Of a DNA stretch of 34,242 bases, positions 2,657 through 19,682 are shown piece by piece. Numbering within the stretch: position 1 is the first letter of the stretch; each line of letters opens with the position of its first letter. Origin of the DNA: Ruminococcus sp. (lineage in GTDB: Bacteria; Bacillota; Clostridia; Oscillospirales; Ruminococcaceae); NCBI GenBank assembly GCA_017513795.1, contig JAFXEJ010000075.1, positions 1 through 34,242 of the forward strand. Reading direction: 5' to 3'. The notes under the pieces are model-generated. The model had not been told where the DNA came from, made no database searches, and was given only the letters and a program-made list of their open reading frames with translations. The translations under genes and the position numbers were made by a program.

Positions 2657-2685
2657 TTGACGAAATCAAGCATCCATGTTATACT
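2657..2685 (+). promoter_or_regulatory. Promoter of the dockerin arabinanase-like gene
   Basis: TTGACG (2657-2662), a 17-base spacer and TATACT (2680-2685) preceded by TGT. It lies over an upstream in-frame ATG at 2676, which rules that codon out as the start. Confidence 0.8.
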
Positions 2686-2729
2686 TTAGTTGTACGAAAC
2701 AGCCAATTATTATTAATAAGGAGTTGCTT

Positions 2730-5549
2730 ATGAAAATCAAAAAAATCGTATCTGCACTGCTCTCATCAGCAGTACTCATTTCCGGTCAGACATCTGGAAT
2801 TCTTCCGCCGCAAAAGGCTCAGGCTGCACCATTCAAGAGCCGTGTTTCAGTTCATGATCCCTCTATTTTCAAGGACTCAGACGGCACATATTACGTTTTC
2901 GGCTCGCATATCGACGCCGCAAAATCCACAGACCTCCAGAGCTGGAACCGCTTTACTAACGGATATACAGCCAAAAACAATACTATCTTCGGCGACCTCT
3001 CAGGAAACCTTGCCAAATCCTTCGCTTGGGCAGGCGAAGATTTAGAGGACTGTGAGGGCGGATTCTCTGTGTGGGCACCCGATGTAATCTACAATCCTGA
3101 CTATGTGAACAAGGACGGCTCAAAAGGCGCATACATGATGTACTTCTGCACTACCTCAACATACATGAGGTCGGTTATTTCCTACGCCGTTTCACAGAAG
3201 GCTGAGGGACCATACACTTTTGTTGATACACTGATTTACTCCGGCTTTACTGAGAATGACAGCTTTGCCGTGAGCAATACGAAAAATGTCAACAGAAAAT
3301 ATACCTCCACCAACATAGATGAGCTTATCGCTGACGGAAAAGTCACATGGAACAACAGCTGGTTCAACAGGTCGAATTTCAACAATCAGCTCTTTCCTAA
3401 CGCTATCGACCCGAATATCTACTACGATACTGACGGAAATATGTATATGTGCTACGGTTCATGGTCTGGAGGAATCTTCACCCACAGGCTCGATAAAGCT
3501 ACAGGACGTGTAATTCATCCAAAATCCGGCACGACCTCAGACGGCAGAATGATAGACAGCTACTTCGGCACGAAGATTTCCGGCGGTTACGGAAAATCAG
3601 GCGAAGCTCCATATATAAAGTATAACGAAGACACCGGATATTACTATCTTTGGGTAACCTACGGCGGACTTTTCTCAGAAGGCGGCTACAATATGCGAGT
3701 ATTCCGCTCACAGAATCCTGACGGACCTTACACAGACCCTTCCGGAAAATCAGCTGTACTTCCGACAAATGCCAACCTCGATACATACGGACTTAAAGTC
3801 ATGGGAAATTACAAGTTCAGCTCGCTGAATACGGCATATATGGCTTGCGGACACAATTCTGTTTTCGAGGACGATGACGATAAATGGTATCTCATAAACC
3901 ACGCCCGCTTCGACGACGGCACGGAATATCACGAGGTAAGAGTTCATTCGATGTACTTCAACAGCGAGGAGTGGCCTGTTGTTGCTCCTTACGAGTACAG
4001 CGGCGATGTCCTTTCAGAAGGCGGATATAACGAATCAGACATCGTCGGCGAATATGAGCTTGTTAATCACGGTCTTGACACAAGCGCAACCATACACAAA
4101 GGCGAGAAAATCACTCTCGGCACAGATGGAAAAATCAGCGGTGCGGCAACAGGTACATGGTCTCAGGCTAAAGACAGCGCTCAGGCATCGTTTGTTATCG
4201 GCGGACAGCGCTATGACGGATATTTCCTTGCGGCTCAGGATGAAACAGGCAAGGAGAAAAAAGTCATGTCCTTTACGGCTGTAGGAAGCGATAATCAGAC
4301 TGTATGGGGAGTTCAGACAAAGCAGTTCACCGGAACTGACCGTTCTGCGCTCATAGATTATACAAGTTCTGACAGCAGTCTCAGCTACTCCCCCGACCTC
4401 TCAGTATCTGCCGGAAATTCCAGATATATCGGCGAAACCGAACTTCTCAGCGGCATACCTTACTTCATCACAAACAAGAACAGCGGACTTCTCCTCGAAG
4501 TTGAGGGCGGTAAAACTGAAGCCGGAACGAACATCCAGCAGTGGGAAATGAACAAAGGACCTCACCACGAATGGCGCATTACAGATCAGGGCGGCGGCTG
4601 GTGCAGAATCTCCCTCATGTCAGACGAAACTATGGCTGTTACAGTTGACGGAAACGACGCTCAGGACGGACTTAACATCGCTCTTGAAAAATATACCGGT
4701 GCCGATAATCAGCTTTTCCGTTTCGTGAAGAACGGAAGCTCCTACGGTATCGTGTCGAAATGCTCGGACGGTACAGCCGGTCTTGACGTTTTCGAGTGGA
4801 GCACCGAAAACGGCGGAAACATTAATCAGTGGAACTATTGGGGCGGCGACTGTCAGCTCTGGAAGCTTACTCCTGTTTATCCGGCTGTCACTAACGGTAC
4901 ATACACCATAAAGAATGTAAACTCCGGCAAGTGGGTTTCCTCAGAAAACGGCAATATTATTCAGAAATCATCCGCAGACGCATGGAAAATCACTTCCTCA
5001 GACGACGGAAGCTTCTATTTTACTGACGGCTCTGGTAACGCTCTCACGGTTGAAAAAGGCTCTCCCGAAGACGGAACAAACATTTCCATTGCGCCGTATA
5101 ATGATGACAAATCACAGAAATTCAACATAATCTGCAACAAGGACGGCTCATATTCGATTCTCTCCGCAGTTACGGACGGAAAATCCTGTCTCGATGTTTT
5201 TGAGATAAGCACTGAGGATGGTGCAAATATCTGTCAGTGGAACTTCTGGGGCGGCGACGGTCAGAAATTCATACTTGAACCATCTGCCGAAATTTCATCT
5301 GAACAGCCTGATGTAATTTACGGCGACGCAAATTGTGATGGAATTATCACGCTTTCGGATGCTGTACTTATGATGCAGGTTATCGGAAACCCCGATAAAT
5401 ACGGTATCGGCGGCACTGAAAGTACTGCTGTGACGCCTCAGGGAATGCTTAACGGCGACTGCTCTGATGTCGGATCCGGCATTACAAATCTTGATGCTCT
5501 TGCTGTTCAGCGATATCTGCTGAAGCTTATCGAAAAACTTCCGGAATAA
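2730..5549 (+). CDS. Secreted GH43 arabinanase-like enzyme with two ricin-type CBMs and a type I dockerin
   Basis: 939 residues. The ATG at 2730 is preceded by AAGGAG six bases upstream and starts a clear signal peptide (MKIKKIVSALL..., cleavage near AQA at 30-32). Residues ~38-400 are a GH43 five-bladed propeller with the expected acid triad: D43 (HDPSIF), D227 (IDPNIY) and E292 (SGEAPY). A GH43 C-terminal beta domain follows (~438-530), as in endo-alpha-1,5-L-arabinanases. Two ricin B/CBM13-like modules (~575-713 and ~722-850) carry repeated QW motifs (IQQWEM, INQWNYW, ICQWNFW). The C-terminus (~862-935) is a dockerin with two calcium loops, GDANCDGIITLSDA and GDCSDVGSGITNLDA; the second type resembles R. 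flavefaciens dockerins. Expected role: arabinan or pectin side-chain hydrolysis within a cellulosome. The substrate is inferred. Confidence 0.92.
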   Translation: MKIKKIVSALLSSAVLISGQTSGILPPQKAQAAPFKSRVSVHDPSIFKDSDGTYYVFGSHIDAAKSTDLQSWNRFTNGYTAKNNTIFGDLSGNLAKSFAWAGEDLEDCEGGFSVWAPDVIYNPDYVNKDGSKGAYMMYFCTTSTYMRSVISYAVSQKAEGPYTFVDTLIYSGFTENDSFAVSNTKNVNRKYTSTNIDELIADGKVTWNNSWFNRSNFNNQLFPNAIDPNIYYDTDGNMYMCYGSWSGGIFTHRLDKATGRVIHPKSGTTSDGRMIDSYFGTKISGGYGKSGEAPYIKYNEDTGYYYLWVTYGGLFSEGGYNMRVFRSQNPDGPYTDPSGKSAVLPTNANLDTYGLKVMGNYKFSSLNTAYMACGHNSVFEDDDDKWYLINHARFDDGTEYHEVRVHSMYFNSEEWPVVAPYEYSGDVLSEGGYNESDIVGEYELVNHGLDTSATIHKGEKITLGTDGKISGAATGTWSQAKDSAQASFVIGGQRYDGYFLAAQDETGKEKKVMSFTAVGSDNQTVWGVQTKQFTGTDRSALIDYTSSDSSLSYSPDLSVSAGNSRYIGETELLSGIPYFITNKNSGLLLEVEGGKTEAGTNIQQWEMNKGPHHEWRITDQGGGWCRISLMSDETMAVTVDGNDAQDGLNIALEKYTGADNQLFRFVKNGSSYGIVSKCSDGTAGLDVFEWSTENGGNINQWNYWGGDCQLWKLTPVYPAVTNGTYTIKNVNSGKWVSSENGNIIQKSSADAWKITSSDDGSFYFTDGSGNALTVEKGSPEDGTNISIAPYNDDKSQKFNIICNKDGSYSILSAVTDGKSCLDVFEISTEDGANICQWNFWGGDGQKFILEPSAEISSEQPDVIYGDANCDGIITLSDAVLMMQVIGNPDKYGIGGTESTAVTPQGMLNGDCSDVGSGITNLDALAVQRYLLKLIEKLPE

Positions 5550-5571: not shown

Positions 5572-5608
5572 CAGGGGCGTACCTATGTGTGCGCCCCTGT
5601 TATTTTTG
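5572..5608 (+). terminator. Intrinsic terminator of the arabinanase-like gene
   Basis: An 11-bp stem, CAGGGGCGTAC paired with GTGCGCCCCTG (one G-T pair), with a 6-base loop, followed by TTATTTTT. It begins 23 bases after the stop codon. Confidence 0.85.
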
Positions 5609-5711: not shown

Positions 5712-5740
5712 TTGCATTTTTATGGTGAATATGCTATAAT
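5712..5740 (+). promoter_or_regulatory. Promoter of the ExbB/ExbD-like operon
   Basis: TTGCAT (5712-5717), a 17-base spacer and extended TGCTATAAT (-10 at 5735-5740). It is the only good promoter in the gap and makes the following three genes an independent unit. Confidence 0.75.
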
Positions 5741-5761
5741 AAACCGTAAGGAGGTATGCCA

Positions 5762-6439
5762 GTGAAAAATATATTTTCGGTCATCTTCATGAATTTCTGG
5801 GGATATGACCTCATTATTTTCATTGCCGCCGTTCTCACGGCTGTGATGTACTTCTCACTTAAAAAATCAGCGGACGGGCTCTACAATAAAATGCATCTTA
5901 CCGTTTTTGTTCCTGATGGCAATCTTTCCCGAAAAGAAGCCGATAACGATATATCCGGACTTCGTGAGACTGATATCGTCACTATGAGAAACAATATGGG
6001 TAAGCTATACTCAATTTTTGTCAATCTTACAGGTATCTTCCCTCTGCTCGGTATTCTCGGTACAGTTATCTCGCTTCTCGGTCTTGTTTCCGATACAAAC
6101 GATATCACAGGAAACTTCTACGGCGCACTTACTTCAACCTTCTGGGGACTTGTTTTTGCTATCATCTTCAAGTTCCTCGATGGAATAATCAGTGCTAAAA
6201 TCGAGGATAATGAAAAGAATGTCGCTCTATATCTCGACCGTAATAATACTCAAAGCATGAATATCCCAAGTCATGAGGAAATCATATCACATGCTTCCCT
6301 CAGACAGACAGATCACCTTTATAATTCCCGATATGCTATGTCAGATTCCGGTTATCCAAAAAATATCAGAAAAGATTACGAGGATAATAATTCCGACTCA
6401 GATCAGGAAGTTATGAAAATCCTCAACTCTATTAACTGA
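5762..6439 (+). CDS. MotA/TolQ/ExbB-family proton channel subunit
   Basis: 225 residues. AAGGAGGT (5748-5755) abuts the ATG at 5756, too close to use it, but is ideally placed for GTG 5762, so GTG is taken as start. Three membrane segments are visible: ~16-31, ~88-108 (GIFPLLGILGTVISLLGL) and ~119-141 (GALTSTFWGLVFAIIFKF). The last two form the family signature, including the pore-lining threonines T101 and T124/T126 expected from ExbB/TolQ. The long loop between helices 1 and 2 is cytoplasmic in the family. In diderms such proteins pass protons to energise outer-membrane partners; what it would drive in a monoderm is unknown. It is followed after one base by the ExbD-like gene. Confidence 0.85.
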   Translation: MKNIFSVIFMNFWGYDLIIFIAAVLTAVMYFSLKKSADGLYNKMHLTVFVPDGNLSRKEADNDISGLRETDIVTMRNNMGKLYSIFVNLTGIFPLLGILGTVISLLGLVSDTNDITGNFYGALTSTFWGLVFAIIFKFLDGIISAKIEDNEKNVALYLDRNNTQSMNIPSHEEIISHASLRQTDHLYNSRYAMSDSGYPKNIRKDYEDNNSDSDQEVMKILNSIN

Positions 6440-6440
6440 T

Positions 6441-7055
6441 ATGAACGGATACCGCAAAAATAAGGGAATTGTGATCGAACTTACTGCCCTTCTCGACGTT
6501 ATCATGATTATGCTTTTCTGGATCATGATGAACGTTCAGGACAGCAGCAAATCGGCTTCTGATGCCGCTGAAAAACGAGCGGCGGTGGCTGAACAAAGAG
6601 CCGAGATTGTTCAGGAAGAACTCGATATCAAAACAGCTCAGCTTGAACGATTCAGAAATGTTCTCCAGAATATTGACAAAAACGCCGCTGATAACCAACA
6701 GGCTCTGCTCGGCTATGAAAGCGGTATGCTCGTTACCCTTGATATCCGCTATGATGACAAGGGAAAGCTCCTTATCTACAATGCAAGCGACAAGCTCGGA
6801 GAAGCTGAAATATCCTCCGAAACAGAAATCACTGCCTGCATTATAAATGCTCTTGATAAGGCAGGTCTTGAAAAAAATGATGTGGTGCTCTGTGCCCTGA
6901 TTTATGACGGAAGCACCTCGCTCTACAAGGATTATAAAATGGTAAACTCTGCTGTCGGAAGCGTAAGAAATGTTTATGCAAACTTCTACTGTGCTTACAT
7001 AAATACAGCGAAAACTAATCAGCCCGAATCTGAATCCACTACGAAAGGATGGTAA
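6441..7055 (+). CDS. ExbD/TolR-like protein with extracellular coiled coil
   Basis: 204 residues. The ATG follows the previous stop by one base with no obvious ribosome binding site, so translation is probably coupled. The N-terminus has one membrane helix with the ExbD/TolR signature IELTALLDVIMIMLFWIMM; D19 matches the proton-carrying Asp of ExbD. A charged heptad-rich stretch (~35-75, SDAAEKRAAVAEQRAEIVQ...) predicts a coiled coil, which is unusual for ExbD. Residues ~85-190 form an alpha/beta extracellular domain (LVTLDIRYDDKGKLLIYNA...) that only loosely resembles the ExbD periplasmic fold. It presumably forms the stator/rotor partner of the upstream channel protein. The family call rests mainly on the transmembrane motif and gene order. 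Confidence 0.75.
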   Translation: MNGYRKNKGIVIELTALLDVIMIMLFWIMMNVQDSSKSASDAAEKRAAVAEQRAEIVQEELDIKTAQLERFRNVLQNIDKNAADNQQALLGYESGMLVTLDIRYDDKGKLLIYNASDKLGEAEISSETEITACIINALDKAGLEKNDVVLCALIYDGSTSLYKDYKMVNSAVGSVRNVYANFYCAYINTAKTNQPESESTTKGW

Positions 7056-7057
7056 TT

Positions 7058-7555
7058 ATGGCAAAATCAAAATCTAAAAAGCAATCCAAAAAAGGTCAGC
7101 CACCGGTTCAGGAGAAAGTTGTTGTAAAAAGAAAAAGCGGCTGCTTTATCGCACTTCTTCTGCTTGCTGCGATAATCGCACTTGTGATATGGCTTCTCAG
7201 CCACTTTGATATAGGTTTCTTCGGCAAGGACGGCGGCGGTGACAGCAAGGGTTCCTCACAATCTGAAAGCGTTGACAACCTCACTCAGATGGAAACTGTC
7301 AACAAAAGCACTCAGCCATCCGATGACAGCGAAAAAATTATTGACATCACAGTAAGCGGAAGTCAGTATTTCTACAACGACGGCAAAATTGAAGTTCAGG
7401 ACTTCATTAATGAAATCAAGGAAATGAACGGCGTTGTGAATGTACGCATTACCGATAATAATTCCTATGTTGAATATATGGAATCCCTTATCGATGCTCT
7501 TGAAGAAAACGGTATTCCCTACACAGAATATCCAGCTGACAGCGAAAACGAATAA
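7058..7555 (+). CDS. Single-pass membrane protein with an ExbD/TolR-like extracellular domain
   Basis: 165 residues from ATG 7058, two bases after the previous stop, with AAAGGA eight bases upstream; an in-frame ATG at 7049 overlaps the previous gene and is less likely. A very basic tail (KSKSKKQSKK, to ~26) precedes one helix (~29-49), then a Gly/Ser/acidic linker. Residues ~93-157 read IIDITVSGSQYFYNDGKIEV...VNVRITDNNSYVEYMESLIDALEENGI, the strand-helix pattern of the ExbD/TolR C-terminal domain. The helix lacks the acidic residue of ExbD, so this looks like an extra ExbD-type domain without the proton site. Last gene of the operon; a terminator follows. Confidence 0.7.
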   Translation: MAKSKSKKQSKKGQPPVQEKVVVKRKSGCFIALLLLAAIIALVIWLLSHFDIGFFGKDGGGDSKGSSQSESVDNLTQMETVNKSTQPSDDSEKIIDITVSGSQYFYNDGKIEVQDFINEIKEMNGVVNVRITDNNSYVEYMESLIDALEENGIPYTEYPADSENE

Positions 7556-7567
7556 AAACCCCTACAG

Positions 7568-7614
7568 AGCCTGTTTGATATCTCCTTCATTACGGGGATA
7601 CTGAACAGGCTTTT
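7568..7614 (+). terminator. Terminator of the ExbB/ExbD-like operon
   Basis: AGCCTGTT and AACAGGCT form a perfect 8-bp base, extended inward by a longer imperfect stem, then TTTT. It separates this operon from the aro genes. Confidence 0.75.
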
Positions 7615-7645
7615 AAGGCAACATCACCATATTAACGGAGGAATT

Positions 7646-8690: not shown

Positions 8691-9916
8691 ATGGATATAC
8701 GCATAACCCCATCACATCTTTCCGGCAGAGTTGAGATACCTGCATCAAAAAGCTGTGCTCACCGTGCACTTATATGCGCATCTCTCGCTCAGGGAAAATC
8801 AGTTATCAGCGGCGTCAGTATGTCCAAGGATATTGAAGCTACAATCGGAGCAATGACGGCTCTCGGCGCACATTTCGACGTTGACGGAACCACTGTGACT
8901 GTTACCGGAATAACATCGGCTCCGGACAAGGCTGACATCGACTGCAACGAAAGCGGCTCAACTCTGAGATTTATTCTGCCTGTTGCTGCTGCTCTCGGCT
9001 CCGAAGCTACTTTCAGGGGCAGAGGACGTCTTCCTCAGCGCCCTATAGACATCTACAAACGTGAACTTACTAAAAACGGTACAGTATTTCTCGCTCAGGA
9101 TATGCCCTATATCATCGGCGGAAAATTAAAAGGCGGCAGATACGAGATAGAAGGCAATGTCTCATCTCAGTTCGTAACGGGACTTATTTTCGCCCTCCCG
9201 CTTCTTGACGAGGATTCTGAAATAATCCTCACATCACGCCTTGAATCACGTCCCTATGTCGATATTACCATTGATATACTCAAACGTTTCGGCATAAGCA
9301 TCACCGAAACTGAAAACAGTTTCTCAATAAAGGGCGGTCAGAAATATACCCCTCATGATGAAAAAATCGAAGGCGATTACTCACAGGCGGCGTTCTTCTG
9401 CGTTGCTAACGCTCTTGGTGCTGATATAGAAATCGGAAATCTCAGCGAAAACAGCGTTCAGGGCGACAGAAAAATCACTGAAATGTGAATGAAGTCTGCT
9501 CTGACGGAAAAATAGGCTCATTCAGGGCGGACTGCTCAGATATTCCCGACCTTGTGCCGATCCTCACTGTTCTCGGAGCTTTCGGCACCGGAGATTCAGT
9601 TATCTACAACGCAGAAAGACTTAAAATCAAGGAAAGCGACAGACTTCAGACATCTGCGGCTCTTGTAAATTCACTCGGCGGAAATGTCGAGATAACTGAC
9701 GACGGACTCATAATTCACCCCGTAAAGAATATGCACGGCGGTATCGTTGACAGCTTCGGCGACCACAGAATCGTTATGGCAGCTGCTATTGCCGCTTCCG
9801 CTGTTGACGGTGAAGTGATTATTCACGGTGCAGAAGCCGCTGAAAAATCATACCCCGATTTCTTTAAGGACTACTCTCAGCTCGGAGGTAAGGCAAATGT
9901 CATCAATCTGGAATAA
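8691..9916 (+). pseudogene. aroA: 5-enolpyruvylshikimate-3-phosphate synthase, interrupted by a one-base frameshift
   Basis: Frame one (8691-9488, 265 residues) carries the N-terminal domain: PASKSCAHRAL, CNESGSTLRF, GRLPQRPID and VSSQFVTGL. It runs into TGA after QGDRKITEM. The -1 frame continues seamlessly from 9485 to 9916 with DIPDLVP, KESDRL, DHRIVMA and KSYPDFF. All expected substrate-binding residues exist across the two pieces, about 408 residues together. The text reads ATGTGA where ATGGTG would restore one frame, so one G appears to be missing near 9485. A GTG at 9485 overlaps the stop, but no ribosome binding site supports a restart and no slippery heptamer is present. Either a recent lesion or a sequencing/assembly error. 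The end overlaps aroC by 20 bases. Confidence 0.85.
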
Positions 9917-13176: not shown

Positions 13177-14286
13177 TTATTTCATCGCAAGACTGTTGTT
13201 TAGTATCAGAGTGCTGTAGATGAACAGTACATCCTGATCTTCAAAATCAATATATGCACTCAGCGCAGAGCTCGAAATATAGCGGATATCCACCAGTGTC
13301 ACCTTTGAATAACCATCAACAAGAAGCGGAGCAAGACTGCTTCCGAAGGAGTCACGGAAAATTATGAGTTCCCTGTCAGAAGAAGCGTCCGGATTTTCTA
13401 CAGTGACAAGCGGATCGCTTCCATTCAGAAACATCTCATAGGCGTCTCTGCCCTCAGCCTTTTCCATGCTGTACATCTGAGCTTCAACCGGCTGTCCGTA
13501 CTTATTGTTATAGCTTGTCACCTTGCATTTTTCAAGAGTATCGTTAGTCATCCAGCAAAGCTCGTCGGGCTCTGCAGGAAGCGCAAGCTGATTATAATAT
13601 ACCCCATAAAACGGCTTGTCAAGCGTCTTTTTTGTATAAGTTCCGCTGAGAGAAGCTCCCATTGCAGAGGCAAGTCTTTCGGCAACATCGGTGATTTTCT
13701 CCTGACGCCAGTGCGTATCTGTACGGTAGAAATCCGATAACGTCAGCAGATCTGTAATGTCGATATATTTCGTGAAATCATCTGTCTGACTGCGCACGCT
13801 CTTTATGAATTCAGGATAATCGAGCGAAAGTCGATTTCTTTTATCGGAAAGAAAACAGTTCTTATCCGGAATCACGGACATATACACGTTAGTATCTGTT
13901 CCGCTGAGATAGGTGTCGTAGATATATCTGAATCTTCCGGCGGCATGATCTATCATCTTGTCGTTCTGCGGATATTCAACCTTTGCGATATATCCGTCCT
14001 GTAAATACAGATCGTTGTTGTCAAGCTTCTGGAATACGAAAAGCTCGGCGGCAGATTTAAACCCTCTGAACATATCACGCATCGGAAACTGATCCATTGC
14101 ATAGTCCTCAAAGGAATTCATAAAGCTTGCATCTACAATAGTTTCTGCCGATAATTCGGGGAAAGTTTTAAGCACACGACGCTCGCTGCCGGAGAAATCC
14201 TCCGGTTTTCTGAACCAGCACCAGAAGGACATTCCGAAAACAAGTACCGCCATTGTTATGACTGTAATCAAATTTTTTACTTTCAT
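13177..14286 (-). CDS. DHHW/AlgX-like SGNH-type protein, partner of the MBOAT acyltransferase
   Basis: 369 residues from ATG 14286 behind GAGGAGGG; an upstream frame extension to 14358 overlaps the MBOAT gene and is rejected. One N-terminal membrane helix (about 8-25) anchors an extracellular domain. SGNH-like catalytic elements are visible: TDTHW (Asp-His) in the middle and FRDSFGSSL near the end. This matches the DHHW family, related to AlgJ/AlgX/DltD, which transfers or handles acetyl groups exported by an MBOAT partner. The partner sits immediately upstream, ending ten bases before this start, so the pair likely O-acetylates or otherwise acylates a cell-surface polymer. The polymer is unknown. 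Confidence 0.85.
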   Translation of the reverse strand: MKVKNLITVITMAVLVFGMSFWCWFRKPEDFSGSERRVLKTFPELSAETIVDASFMNSFEDYAMDQFPMRDMFRGFKSAAELFVFQKLDNNDLYLQDGYIAKVEYPQNDKMIDHAAGRFRYIYDTYLSGTDTNVYMSVIPDKNCFLSDKRNRLSLDYPEFIKSVRSQTDDFTKYIDITDLLTLSDFYRTDTHWRQEKITDVAERLASAMGASLSGTYTKKTLDKPFYGVYYNQLALPAEPDELCWMTNDTLEKCKVTSYNNKYGQPVEAQMYSMEKAEGRDAYEMFLNGSDPLVTVENPDASSDRELIIFRDSFGSSLAPLLVDGYSKVTLVDIRYISSSALSAYIDFEDQDVLFIYSTLILNNSLAMK

Positions 14287-14296
14287 GACGCCCTCC

Positions 14297-15700
14297 TCAG
14301 AAACGGAAATACATAAACGGATTGAATGAGCCGTCCACGAGATATGCTGTTGCGGCAAGAGTTATCACCACGACAAACACGATTTCTGAAACGCTCAGAA
14401 CAGCCGCTCCCGACTTTGATGTGCGTACCTTTTCGGTAAGCATTTTCGGAAGCTGAGTTGCTCCGATAACCGCAAGTATCAGGATAAGCGCAAAGCTGCG
14501 CAGATAATAGCTGTGCTCGTCGGTTATGAACGGAAGTCCTCTCAGACCGAACATTCCGCCGATGCACTTTCCGGCTGTACTCATCGAATCCGAACCGAAA
14601 ATGACAAAGCTTATCAGAATTGTCATCAGTACATAGGTGTGACTGAGAATCTTCGATTTTTTGAGATATTTTCCAAGAAAAAATTTCTCGGCTGTAAGAA
14701 ATACTGCAAAATAAAGTCCCCATATAACGAAATTCCATGCGGCACCGTGCCAGAATCCGGTGAGCATCCACACGATAAGGATATTTCTCAGGTGACGAAG
14801 CTTCGAAACACGGTTTCCGCCAAGAGGGATATATACATAATCCCTGAACCATGTGCCAAGCGAAATGTGCCATCTGCGCCAGAATTCAGTTATGCTCCGT
14901 GATGTGAACGGGTACCGGAAGTTCTCGCAAAGTTCAAAACCGAACACCTTTGCAAGACCGACTGCCATATCACTGTAGCCGGAGAAATCGAAATAAATCT
15001 GTAGAGAATAGGAAATCGCATACATCCAGCACAGAGCAACTGAAATTTCCGAACCGTCAGTATATACTCTGCAAAGATCGCCAAGTGCATTCGCTATAAG
15101 AACCTTTTTGCCAAGACCAATAACGAAAATTCGTATTCCGTCAGCAGTCTTGTCAAGAGTATGGGTTCTTGATTTGAGCTGTGCCGCAACATCGGAATAA
15201 CGCACGATAGGTCCGGCGATAAGCTGAGGAAACATCGAGACATACGCTCCGAGATCAATGGGGTTTCGCTGTGCCTTGACATCGTTTCTGTAGACATCCA
15301 CGACATAGCTCAGTATCTGGAACGTATAGAAGCTTATTCCCACAGGCAGAGCAACTTTTTTGATTGCAAGATCAAGTCCCGTAAGAGCGTTGATGTTTTC
15401 AACAAAGAATCCGGAATACTTGAAATATCCAAGTGCGCCCAGACTCAGTGCCGTCGAAGCTATGAGTATTACACGGGCGGTTTTCTTTTTTTCGCGGAAG
15501 CGTTCTATCAGCAAACCTGAAACGTATCCGATAAGGATACTTGCTATCATGAGGAAAATATATTTCGGCTCGCCCCATGCATAAAAAACAAGGCTTACTA
15601 TAAGAAGTGCCGTATTTTTCAGTTTTGAAGGCGAAATGAAATACAGGATGAGTGCGGCTGGAAGAAAAAAATATAGGAAAGTCAGGGTTGAAAATACCAT
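14297..15700 (-). CDS. MBOAT family O-acyltransferase (DltB/AlgI type)
   Basis: 467 residues. GGAGAGG lies eight bases before ATG 15700; an in-frame GTG at 15709 overlaps that site. A polytopic membrane protein with the AlgI/DltB signature blocks: PVGISFYTFQILSYVVDVYR, GPIVRYSD, YFDFSGYSDMA, FWRRWHISLGTWFRDYVYIPLGG and the catalytic His in TGFWHGAAWNF. It moves acyl groups across the membrane to an extracellular acceptor together with the adjacent DHHW protein. This is an AlgI-like context rather than a dlt operon, because dltA/C/D are absent. Confidence 0.92.
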   Translation of the reverse strand: MVFSTLTFLYFFLPAALILYFISPSKLKNTALLIVSLVFYAWGEPKYIFLMIASILIGYVSGLLIERFREKKKTARVILIASTALSLGALGYFKYSGFFVENINALTGLDLAIKKVALPVGISFYTFQILSYVVDVYRNDVKAQRNPIDLGAYVSMFPQLIAGPIVRYSDVAAQLKSRTHTLDKTADGIRIFVIGLGKKVLIANALGDLCRVYTDGSEISVALCWMYAISYSLQIYFDFSGYSDMAVGLAKVFGFELCENFRYPFTSRSITEFWRRWHISLGTWFRDYVYIPLGGNRVSKLRHLRNILIVWMLTGFWHGAAWNFVIWGLYFAVFLTAEKFFLGKYLKKSKILSHTYVLMTILISFVIFGSDSMSTAGKCIGGMFGLRGLPFITDEHSYYLRSFALILILAVIGATQLPKMLTEKVRTSKSGAAVLSVSEIVFVVVITLAATAYLVDGSFNPFMYFRF

Positions 15701-15727
15701 AATATACACCTCTCCGGCAAAAATTCA

Positions 15728-16754: not shown

Positions 16755-19682
16755 TTACTGATTTTCATGGAAGAAATACGGAAGCGCATCGTAAACGTAA
16801 TGTCTTACAAAGCCCCACCAGTGAGTCTTGCCAGGTGCAACAAGGAAATACAGGTTGCCCTTTGAGAAGTCAGATGTATAAGTGAAATAATTTGTTTTTG
16901 ACTTGAGATCATTCATCTGAGGTACCATGTTATTATAGGCAATATCCTCATCGCCTGTAGCTGCAAAGATGAAATATTCATTCTTCTTATAACCGAGACT
17001 GTCTATCTGATTTGTGAGAGTTCCCATACCCTCCCAGTTATCGCCTGAAAGCGGCATGAAATAACCAACAAGATCCATTGCGTGATTTGCTACGCACCAT
17101 GTTGAAAGTGAGCCCATTGAAAATCCACCGTAGGCACGGTGCATTCTTGAAGCACGAAGATCTGCTTCTGATGTAGAAGCCGCATATGTGGAGTATTTGC
17201 CCTCTACAAAAGGAACAACGCTCTTGCGGAACTCCTCATAGAATTTATCAGCGCCGCTCTTGTTGAATGTAGGAGTTACTACGATAAGCGGTTCAAGCTC
17301 GCCGTTCATTATCATATGGTCGAGAATATGGTCAAGCTTTACATCGTCGCTGAAAATTGTATTCTCATTTTCTCCGCCGCCGTGCATGAGATAGAAGATA
17401 TTGTATTTCTTATTTTCATCATATCCATAAGGCAGATAAACGTTGAGTGTATTTGAACCGTGAATGCCGTTGTATGTTTCCTTTACAACCGTTCCTGCCT
17501 GTGAGCATTCACCGAGATAACCTGATGGAGCTTCACGGTAGGAAAGTGCCGGATCATAATTGAAGTCACTCGGCTCCGGCTCCGGTTCAGGCTCAGGCTC
17601 CGGAGTATTGTCAGGAAATACATTAATTTCTCCGTTAACGAATTTCTGAATAAGCACAAGATCATTTACTTCATACTTTCCGCTGTTATCTGCATCGGCA
17701 CAGAATAATGCCATACTGTCATTAAGTTTTCCTGTTATAGCCTTTCTTGCAAGAACTACATCGAATGCGTCGATAACACCGTCACGATCAACATCACCTT
17801 CGTTGGCTGTTCCGCCCTTAGCACCGCTTACTGGAGTTCCCTTAACAGCGATAACTGCGTCGTCGATGTAGAAATCGTTCTTGCCTGCAGCCGTTTCAAC
17901 ATATATGCAGACATCTTCGGCTCCTGACGGAATTGTAAAATTCTGATTAGCAAGCTGTACCCATTTACCCTTGACAGCTCGTGAAGTTGATATCTTTTCA
18001 TAGTGCGCTTCGCCGTCAGCGTCATTGTACTGCATTGTAAAGTGGAATTTCTCAGCAGTTTCGCACTTATCAGTCATAGCATTTACGCTGAAGCTGTATG
18101 TTGAACCGGGCTTGAACGAATCATCAAGTTCAATTATAGCGCCGTTCCATGAAGAACTGCGGTTTGTGACTTTAAGTGAATTTCTTCCTTCAAACGCAGC
18201 TGTATCATTAGCGATTTCCGCATCACCACGTCCTGTCCAGCTTCCTTCATTTCCTTCAAAGTTTGAACGGTAAAGGTATCCTTCAGGGTCAGGCTCAGCA
18301 GGAGCACTTCCAGGACCGCTGAATTTCCACCAGTCCACGTTGAGAAGATATCCGCTTCCGCCGCTGAATACGAAGTAGAGATCATGTTCTCCCTCAACGA
18401 CAACATCGCATGAAACTTCTTCCCATGTCTGCCAGCCGCCTGTATTTCCGACTTCGCAAACACCGATAATCGGACCTGTCGGGCTTTCGGTATGGATTTC
18501 GATTACGCCGCCTTCAGTATCGGAAGCCACACTTGCAGTAAATTTATCGGCACCGCTTCCGAAATCCACACCCTTCACCTTTATATAATCACCCTTTTCA
18601 ATATTAGCCACATCAAGACCGCCATTTGAGCAAACCTCAGTTTTAATGCCTTCACTGTAGCAAATAGTTTCGGCTTCCGTCTTTACAAAAGGATTGAGGG
18701 ATTCTATCTGTTCAGGACCTGTTTTTGTAGGAGTTATAGTCGGGATAGAGCCGTCAGCTCCGTATTCAAATTCATCGACGCATACGCTTCTGTTGAAAGT
18801 TCCGCCGCCTTTAAGACTTGCATCGTGATAGAAAAGATATGATTTTCCCTTGTAGTCGATAACTCCGGGATGATTTGTATAGCAATTGTGAGTTTTCATT
18901 ACCTGTCCACGATAAGTCCAGGGACCTGTCGGTGAAGAAGCCGTTGAATATCCAAGACTTTCTCCGCTGTCACTTCCGTAAAATGAAGCATAGAGAAGAT
19001 AATATAGATCGTTGCGCTTATAGAGCCAAGGACCTTCACCGTATGATGTATCTCTCTCTGTGCTCGAACCAAAAGCCTGAGTAGTCATGTCGAACTTCTC
19101 AACATTTCCGGAATATGATATCATATCCTCGTTCAACTTAATATAGTAGCAGGTAGGATTTCCGAACATCAGATAAGCCTGACCGTCATCGTCGATGAAA
19201 ACGGTAGGATCTATGTAATCCCAGTTCGGACCGACAAGAGGCTTTCCGATAGCGTCCTTGAATGGTCCGGTAGGGCTGTCTGCCACCGCAACACCGATAG
19301 CTCTGCCTCCGCCTGTATTGTTTTCGAGAGTTACATAATAGTAGAACTTTCCGTTGCGCTCGATGCACTGAGCTGCCCATGCGGAATCTTCCTTGCCCCA
19401 TGAGAAGCTGTCCCATGAAAGGATAGTTCCGTGATCGGTCCAGTTCTGCATATCCTTAGTGGAATAGCAGTGCCAGTCAGGCATGTGGTAGAAATCCGAA
19501 TTGTCCTTGTCACGTCCGGTATACAGATAAAGGGTATCATTGTAGACCATCGGTGCAGGATCGGTTGAATAGATTGTCTGAATGGCGGGATTGTCTGCGT
19601 TTGCAGTTTTTTCGGGCATATACACGGCTGTACTCATAGCTGTCATAAGTACTGCCGAAACGCCGGCAATAAATTTTTTCAT
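16755..19682 (-). CDS. Cellulosomal GH43-CBM6-CBM22-dockerin-CE1 bifunctional xylanolytic enzyme
   Basis: 975 residues from ATG 19682 behind AAGGAGGAAC. Signal peptide 1-29 (cleavage ANA-D). GH43 propeller ~31-320 with D41 (STDPAP), D158 (YIDPTV) and E216 (YGEGPW). CBM6-like module ~333-456, then a CBM22-like module ~466-615. The dockerin is internal (~628-690) with loops GDVDRDGVIDAFD and ADADNSGKYEVND. An EPEPEP linker (694-704) joins a C-terminal CE1 esterase (~710-975) with nucleophile S855 (GFSMGS), acid D911 or D913 (TGDED) and H954 (GKTHWW). Expected action: removal of arabinose or xylose from xylan plus feruloyl or acetyl ester cleavage, in one cellulosome-bound protein. Single-gene unit with its own promoter. 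Confidence 0.95.
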   Translation of the reverse strand: MKKFIAGVSAVLMTAMSTAVYMPEKTANADNPAIQTIYSTDPAPMVYNDTLYLYTGRDKDNSDFYHMPDWHCYSTKDMQNWTDHGTILSWDSFSWGKEDSAWAAQCIERNGKFYYYVTLENNTGGGRAIGVAVADSPTGPFKDAIGKPLVGPNWDYIDPTVFIDDDGQAYLMFGNPTCYYIKLNEDMISYSGNVEKFDMTTQAFGSSTERDTSYGEGPWLYKRNDLYYLLYASFYGSDSGESLGYSTASSPTGPWTYRGQVMKTHNCYTNHPGVIDYKGKSYLFYHDASLKGGGTFNRSVCVDEFEYGADGSIPTITPTKTGPEQIESLNPFVKTEAETICYSEGIKTEVCSNGGLDVANIEKGDYIKVKGVDFGSGADKFTASVASDTEGGVIEIHTESPTGPIIGVCEVGNTGGWQTWEEVSCDVVVEGEHDLYFVFSGGSGYLLNVDWWKFSGPGSAPAEPDPEGYLYRSNFEGNEGSWTGRGDAEIANDTAAFEGRNSLKVTNRSSSWNGAIIELDDSFKPGSTYSFSVNAMTDKCETAEKFHFTMQYNDADGEAHYEKISTSRAVKGKWVQLANQNFTIPSGAEDVCIYVETAAGKNDFYIDDAVIAVKGTPVSGAKGGTANEGDVDRDGVIDAFDVVLARKAITGKLNDSMALFCADADNSGKYEVNDLVLIQKFVNGEINVFPDNTPEPEPEPEPEPSDFNYDPALSYREAPSGYLGECSQAGTVVKETYNGIHGSNTLNVYLPYGYDENKKYNIFYLMHGGGENENTIFSDDVKLDHILDHMIMNGELEPLIVVTPTFNKSGADKFYEEFRKSVVPFVEGKYSTYAASTSEADLRASRMHRAYGGFSMGSLSTWCVANHAMDLVGYFMPLSGDNWEGMGTLTNQIDSLGYKKNEYFIFAATGDEDIAYNNMVPQMNDLKSKTNYFTYTSDFSKGNLYFLVAPGKTHWWGFVRHYVYDALPYFFHENQ

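Follow-up and report, generated by a model that had tools for sequence, protein, structure and literature searches.

Motors of the family to which ExbB–ExbD and TolQ–TolR belong are built from five ring subunits and two axle subunits, and protons flow through them via an Asp and a ring of Thr residues (PMC9389320, PMC12204202; here and below, papers are cited from excerpts of their text). The main known role of the Exb/Tol branch is to supply the outer membrane with energy. A 2025 survey of MotAB relatives describes non-flagellar groups with a condensed, two- or three-helix cytoplasmic domain, some members of which have unknown functions (PMC12505986); a text search of it finds no word starting with “Ruminococc”. 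In the literature on Exb/Tol motors in monoderm Firmicutes, no listed title or abstract opening describes the gene arrangement reported here. That arrangement is the three-gene operon Q-R-S, found in a 34,242-nucleotide stretch of DNA from Ruminococcus sp. (assembly GCA_017513795.1, contig JAFXEJ010000075.1, positions 1 to 34,242 of the forward strand; hereafter, the window). Its genes resemble those of the Exb/Tol branch, and they are conserved in gut and rumen bacteria that seemingly possess no outer membrane.

The three-gene unit is real. From comparison with the family, we consider it rather likely that Q-R-S specifies a proton-driven Q5R2 motor of the ExbBD/TolQR branch together with an accessory protein, S, that bears an ExbD-type domain, and that the assembly acts on the wall of monoderm Clostridia. 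Among the features of the branch that were tested, a PF01618 ring protein and an Asp in an ExbD/TolR-type helix were found, whereas the scores for an ExbD/TolR-type outer domain on the Asp-bearing subunit are mixed; Q-R-S probably works like an ExbBD/TolQR motor. The features of the locus are these:

5712 to 5740, + strand: promoter-like site, TTGCAT-N17-TATAAT with a TG ahead of the second hexamer, the sole match to this pattern in the window.
5762 to 6439 (alternative start 5756), + strand: Q, predicted ExbB/TolQ-type three-helix subunit, from PF01618 and hhalign.
6441 to 7055, + strand: R, predicted ExbD/TolR-type transmembrane helix with Asp19, a coiled coil and an outer alpha/beta-like domain, from hhalign and conservation.
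6495 to 6497, + strand: codon for Asp19 of R, by alignment the counterpart of Asp25 in E. coli ExbD.
7058 to 7555 (alternative start 7049), + strand: S, with a helix lacking an acidic residue, a Gly-rich stretch, a linker and a probably ExbD-like C-terminal domain.
7325 to 7540, + strand: outer domain of S (aligned stretch), probably ExbD-like; hhalign 76.5% against the ExbD plus TolR outer domain, best of 31 decoys 5.3%.
7561 to 7618, + strand: terminator-like hairpin with a short T run; -28 kcal/mol, z -5.9, equalled by 0 of 200 shuffles.

The three open reading frames (ORFs) lie on the + strand at positions 5762–7555, with spacers of 1 nt between Q and R and 2 nt between R and S. Homologues favour the GTG at 5762 as the start of Q (MKNIFS...) and the ATG at 7058 as the start of S. 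The promoter pattern was chosen post hoc, after the site had been seen; 0.03 matches were expected, and the pattern was found in 3 of 100 shuffles. The site is absent from a generic promoter scan because its first hexamer fits at only three of six bases, and the hairpin following S is not among the calls of a generic terminator scan. The gene before Q has a terminator-like hairpin of its own at 5572–5599. For Q, R and S alike, the ratio of nonsynonymous to synonymous substitution rates (dN/dS) is 0.02–0.32 across 10 locus pairs, one of which is the window versus locus L052, indicating purifying selection.

The trio recurs among relatives. Specifically, a search with the single R sequence matched 10 of 148 genomes of the family, and a larger R profile matched 19 of them at E <= 0.001, 13 strongly (E <= 3e-11); Q-R-S is contiguous in 12 of those 13, G090 being the exception. 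A scan of one genome per species found 217 relatives, 80 of which were retained for examination. Q-R-S is contiguous in 78 of these 80 species contigs; the contig of L123 stops after R, and in L100 the trio is split. By eye, one gene in the R–S interval of L100 resembles a PAS/CheB-CheR-type signalling protein. Most of the 80 contigs are titled Ruminococcus, and others Ruminiclostridium, Oscillospiraceae, Ruminococcaceae, or uncultured Clostridia or Clostridiales; one Lachnospiraceae record and one Alistipes record, both metagenome-assembled, complete the set. L104, titled Alistipes senegalensis, holds a Ruminococcus-like copy, has a flank family in common with other loci and is probably a mislabelled bin. 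Within the order, matches at E <= 0.001 came from 7 of 295 genomes; five have trios, one of them in another family (L046). For the class the count at E <= 1e-6 was 3 of 391, namely the genome of the window and two from other families, both with contiguous Q-R-S. The phylum-wide search picked out 3 of 398 genomes: the same genome, one with an ordinary ExbB–ExbD pair and one lacking Q in the stretch examined. Because Q-R-S recurs and its dN/dS is 0.02–0.32, the trio is more than a chance association. An earlier note on this DNA, made from its letters, had claimed for the unit its own promoter, its own terminator and near-zero gene spacing, and had made recurrence of the gene order elsewhere a point to check; the site, the hairpin and the short gaps are in place, and the order recurs in the species contigs and in two further families of the class.

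Other loci were set aside. L050 (G789) is by sequence an ordinary ExbB–ExbD pair, and L048, L049 and L051 hold no Q within the 3.1–3.4 kb examined. A viral or plasmid origin was also rejected: relatives of R were confirmed in none of the viral contigs (25 stretches) and in no plasmids, and relatives of Q were found in no phages. A second S-like gene follows the first in L040, L042, L045, L046 and L163.

Q is the best defined of the three proteins. It matches the PF01618 MotA_ExbB profile (E 3.5e-10; 40.2 bits against a cut-off of 22.9), is the only PF01618 match in its genome (E <= 0.001), shows hydrophobic peaks at residues 15–33, 91–109 and 127–145, and has a short tail. Set by hhalign against single E. 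coli sequences, Q scores 83% with ExbB, 74% with TolQ and 3% with MotA, with no decoys run in this comparison. Its GTV and TST motifs line up, again by hhalign, with the GTVWG and ALIATAIGL segment of TolQ. Conservation was read from alignments of 47 Q, 77 R and 78 S rows, each hand-picked from about 90 with near copies excluded. P94, G97, G100, T101, A122, T124, T126 and G129 are invariant in all 47 Q rows. In a tree, these rows form one group (branch support 99/87), apart from 29 ExbB-like rows of ExbD-bearing genomes. The ExbB-like rows come from 29 of 30 loci and, by motif, MotA rows from just 2 of 30, so the tree is of little use on MotA. It is likely but not certain that Q belongs to the ExbB/TolQ branch.

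R carries the candidate proton site. Its first 35 residues score 88.8% against ExbD by hhalign, compared with 2.2% for the best of 31 decoys and 11.3% for the best of 40 column shuffles; the helix region scores 92.5% when E. coli ExbD and TolR are added to the ExbD set. Asp19 is present in 77 of 77 R members. The helix is followed by an Ala/Glu-rich segment with the look of a coiled coil. Neither R nor S reaches a curated cut-off in Pfam or NCBIfam, and PADLOC and PHROG offer nothing convincing for either. Of all Pfam families, PF02472 reaches the largest number of R members (39 of 77, at E <= 0.1; the best E-value is 1e-4), the window's own R being unmatched; several coiled-coil families match fewer members with better best E-values. 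The outer domain of R is ExbD-like only doubtfully. Against ExbD, hhalign gives 0.3% for the main set, with 27 of 31 decoys scoring higher, and 1.3% for the main and divergent sets combined, compared with 54.5% for five divergent members (decoys <= 12.3%, shuffles <= 1.5%) and 24.9% for seven (decoys <= 1.4%); between the divergent and main sets themselves, the score is 97.9%. R could be an ExbD relative throughout, with an inserted coiled coil, or an ExbD helix joined to a foreign domain.

S begins with a lysine-rich, positively charged N-terminus, followed by one hydrophobic helix (residues 29–47) without an acidic residue; the helix core lacks an acidic residue in 77 of 78 S members. This helix region, taken alone, scores 1.15% against ExbD (hhalign). 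A Gly-rich stretch follows (present in 61 of 78 members by the motif used), then a low-complexity linker rich in Ser, Thr and Glu, and finally a domain of about 65 residues. It is this last domain that resembles the outer domain of ExbD: hhalign gives 78%, compared with at most 3.0% for 31 decoys and 12.4% for 40 shuffles, and the score with E. coli ExbD and TolR added is the 76.5% listed above. A broad S set scores 79% (decoys <= 4.6%), and nine divergent S score 90%. The ExbD reference set was drawn from 30 loci, reduced to 23 by a motif filter and to 22 by removal of one wrong ORF. That S bears an ExbD-type outer domain is probable, not proven.

The genome seems to offer the predicted motor no outer membrane to act on. 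Omp85 was not found in it (96% complete), in a search that was positive in 7 of 14 control genomes, and a profile search found no PF02472 ExbD. By this outer-membrane marker Q-R-S is not a Ton system, no genome-wide search having been aimed at TonB, TolA or receptors. TolA, TolB and Pal are absent from the 17 neighbouring ORFs scanned in the window (the scan did not extend genome-wide), and the flank families of relatives are not widely common. No Zorya effector was found among the same 17 ORFs, window ends excluded, the one nuclease there being RecJ-like; of the window proteins, Q drew no PADLOC match at all, and neither R nor S matched a Zorya model. Thus, much of what the earlier note had read from the letters holds: a TolQ/ExbB-type three-helix Q, an ExbD-like helix with Asp19 in R, an S whose outer domain is the better ExbD match and whose helix lacks the Asp, the lack of outer-membrane or flagellar context (no Omp85, no PF02472 and no second PF01618 in the genome) and the lack of nearby Zorya effector genes.

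The notion is that the operon builds a motor on the pattern of its family. Five Q subunits would form a ring and two R helices its axle. As in the ExbBD/TolQR branch, the Asp of R and the facing threonines of Q (T101, T124 and T126) would serve proton flow, which would turn or tilt R, and the coiled coil of R could act as a shaft that passes this motion into the wall zone. S probably lies outside the pore, because its helix has neither the Asp nor likeness to ExbD; it would be anchored beside the Q ring, rather like TonB or TolA. On its flexible Gly-rich arm, S would present the ExbD-type domain, which may grip the outer domain of R or the peptidoglycan. On this view, the mechanical work of the motor would be directed at the cell wall or at a surface partner bound to the wall; no such partner is constantly encoded beside the operon. 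The wall is a reasonable target because the ExbD outer domain binds the peptidoglycan of E. coli and S. aureus (PMC10771500). The cell-wall or surface process that the earlier note had suggested is plausible.

We entertain, more tentatively and at somewhat less than even chances, a further proposal: the functions of ExbD are divided, R being the proton axle with a coiled-coil shaft and S a separately anchored clamp of ExbD fold, in an Exb/Tol-branch motor native to monoderm Clostridia that powers, in gut bacteria that degrade fibre, some process of the wall or surface served by no known 5:2 motor. The earlier note had likewise seen the ExbD roles as shared by two proteins. That view stands for the Asp on R and the better domain on S; it is weakened in that the outer domain of R may itself be a diverged ExbD domain. 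A conserved motor of this branch in bacteria that seem to lack an outer membrane would mean that protons drive mechanical work on the wall of a monoderm, in a process not yet known, and the placement of axle and outer domain on separate genes would reveal the role of each part of ExbD.

Several observations weigh against a Q5R2 motor with an ExbD-domain accessory. From the mechanical side, we infer its stoichiometry, rotation, S interaction and wall contact, and ExbD did not bind the peptidoglycan of B. subtilis (PMC10771500). From the side of gene order, G090 (locus L162) has Q on the opposite strand, about 15.5 kb away from R-S and beside what by eye is an Hsp33-like gene, and about 5.5 kb of other genes separates R from S in L100 (L100:1573-7125); adjacency is thus not strictly required. 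For Q, the top match in a HMMER search of the PDB is a MotA (8gqy, E 1.6e-6), ahead of ExbB and TolQ, and NCBIfam gives only weak matches of the MotA type, so the placing of Q with ExbB over MotA rests on hhalign. In addition, the Glu of the third TolQ helix, which we take to correspond to Glu176 of ExbB, aligns with a Gly in Q. For R, sequence searches of the PDB give no ExbD or TolR match at E <= 10. The same is true of sequence and profile searches with S, and PF02472 touches only 3 of 78 S members at E <= 0.1 whereas other families touch up to 18; for these reasons the ExbD-type domain of S is graded below proven. Finally, the S domain scores just 62% against the full-length ExbD set, and the 90% obtained for nine divergent S against ExbD came without a decoy run of its own.

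Among other explanations, the one that fares best is that R and S are two ExbD-type subunits in a single Q ring, as in AglRQS, either forming an R-S heterodimer with a single Asp or alternating; we regard it as unlikely. R and S are each related to ExbD in some part, full-length S scoring 86–91% across 112–114 columns, and AglQ and AglS provide the precedent of two MotB-like subunits in one system (PMC9389320). The helix region of S, however, has almost no likeness to that of ExbD (the 1.15% given above) and no Asp, unlike AglQ and AglS, both predicted to carry one, and the layout of S, with its long linker, is that of TonB or TolA. Less probable again is a proton-gated sensor or leak valve, in which S or R would sense the wall or turgor and gate proton entry with no mechanical work done. 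The same sequence features suit this idea, the flexible arm and small domain of S could sense, and the operon encodes no constant partner nearby; on the other hand, MotAB, ExbBD, TolQR, AglRQS and GldLM are all described as force-generating (PMC9389320).

We give little credence to a reduced, Zorya-like motor for defence, which would detect phage attack at the wall and signal to the cell interior. Zorya too is a 5:2 motor with peptidoglycan-binding outer domains (PMC11890865), the distribution of the trio is patchy (13 of 148 genomes), and at E <= 0.1 the PADLOC model ZorB1 finds 16 of the 77 R members (best E-value 2.3e-5), alongside LmuB with 21 and JetC2 with 16. Opposing this, the window proteins drew no such models, none of the 17 neighbouring ORFs reads as an effector, the tail of Q is short where that of ZorA is long, and the genes beside the relatives vary, those looked at having, by eye, mostly housekeeping or sugar-related roles. 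The Ton systems that occur occasionally in monoderm Clostridia have been called likely non-functional (PMC12204202), but a functionless Ton system, whether vestigial or gained by horizontal transfer, is highly improbable here, because dN/dS is low in all three genes and the motor residues are constant across the aligned rows; moreover, the trio is intact in nearly all of the species contigs, and R and S differ from ExbD and TonB. A wall-directed Q5R2 motor with S as accessory is the explanation we prefer.

The surroundings of the operon do not name its task. In the window, a GH43 enzyme with a sub-cut-off dockerin-like match lies upstream and aro genes lie downstream. Among relatives the flanks vary, with 35 nearest-downstream families over 80 loci and 40 nearest-upstream families over 76; any flank family is held in common in 301 of 2791 locus pairs with R identity < 50%. 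The conserved fourth partner that the earlier note had thought to look for beside homologues did not appear: the largest flank family, which by eye looks patatin-like, accompanies 22 of 81 loci, and the others at most 21. The operon may go with a fibre-degrading or cellulosome lifestyle, which we offer as a lead only. Specifically, at least five dockerin matches occur in 9 of the 13 R-bearing family genomes and in 19 of the 135 others (Fisher p 4e-5), and any dockerin match in 11 and 48, respectively (p 8e-4), both values being uncorrected for kinship and the dockerin counts stopping at 40; six genomes with weak R (E 2e-5 to 3e-4), of which one, G094, was inspected, were counted as lacking R in this comparison. 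G019, of the same genus and without R, has at least 40 dockerin matches.

We note some further features of the window and of these genomes. Two large GH43 enzymes, at 2676–5549 and 16755–19682, have dockerin-type matches, that of the first falling short of the cut-off; ricin-type lectin domains occur in one, and CBM6, CBM4_9 and an esterase domain in one. At 8691–9916, aroA lies in two frames, with ORFs of 265 and 143 amino acids that match the profile up to 260–270 and again from 292–301. The gene is interrupted or misassembled, since the two frames match successive parts of the profile. In G135, the aroB relative is on a different contig from Q-R-S, while that of G019 sits close to the start of a contig; a search for the window's PBP gene in these two genomes gave nothing further on the genomic site. 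A DHHW gene adjoins an MBOAT gene at 13177–15709, and DHHW and MBOAT genes stand side by side in O-acetylation gene pairs.

Compared with described systems, Q-R-S coincides with none and shares parts with several. Like Zorya ZorA–ZorB (PMC11890865), it would be a 5:2 motor with no part in flagella or in an outer membrane; it differs in having no nearby effector gene seen, a short Q tail and no PADLOC match for Q. Zorya itself was ruled out on the PADLOC results and the effector scan of the 17 neighbouring ORFs. Flagellar MotAB was rejected as well: Q scores 3% against E. coli MotA, R scores 0.3% against MotB (hhalign), and the genome has no second PF01618 match. The recently described von Willebrand factor A (vWA) partners of TolQ-like rings also pair an Asp helix with an unusual outer domain; they occur mainly in Proteobacteria and Verrucomicrobia (PMC12204202), whereas the window's R and S have no vWA match. 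AglRQS of Myxococcus resembles the trio in joining one MotA-like ring protein to two MotB/TolR-like partners (PMC9389320). It differs in that an Asp is predicted in both AglQ and AglS and none lies in S, and AglRQS was rejected as an identity because the helix core of S lacks an acidic residue in nearly every member. With TolQ–TolR–TolA, Q-R-S shares the order of ring subunit, Asp subunit and single-helix protein with a Gly-rich stretch and linker; in E. coli TolA, as in S, a Gly run follows the helix. S nevertheless scores only 13.7% against TolA (hhalign) and has no long helical arm, and by the scan of the 17 neighbouring ORFs, which holds no Tol-Pal genes, the trio is not a Tol-Pal system. 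Canonical ExbBD was ruled out, as PF02472 matches neither the window proteins nor the genome. ExbB–ExbD nonetheless matches in the three-helix Q with its GTV and TST motifs, the Asp of R at the place of ExbD Asp25 and the ExbD-type outer domain, here apparently on S. It differs in that the Q-R-S genome has neither Omp85 nor PF02472, that R contains a coiled coil, that S is extra, and that the Asp helix and the best ExbD-type domain belong to separate proteins, R and S.

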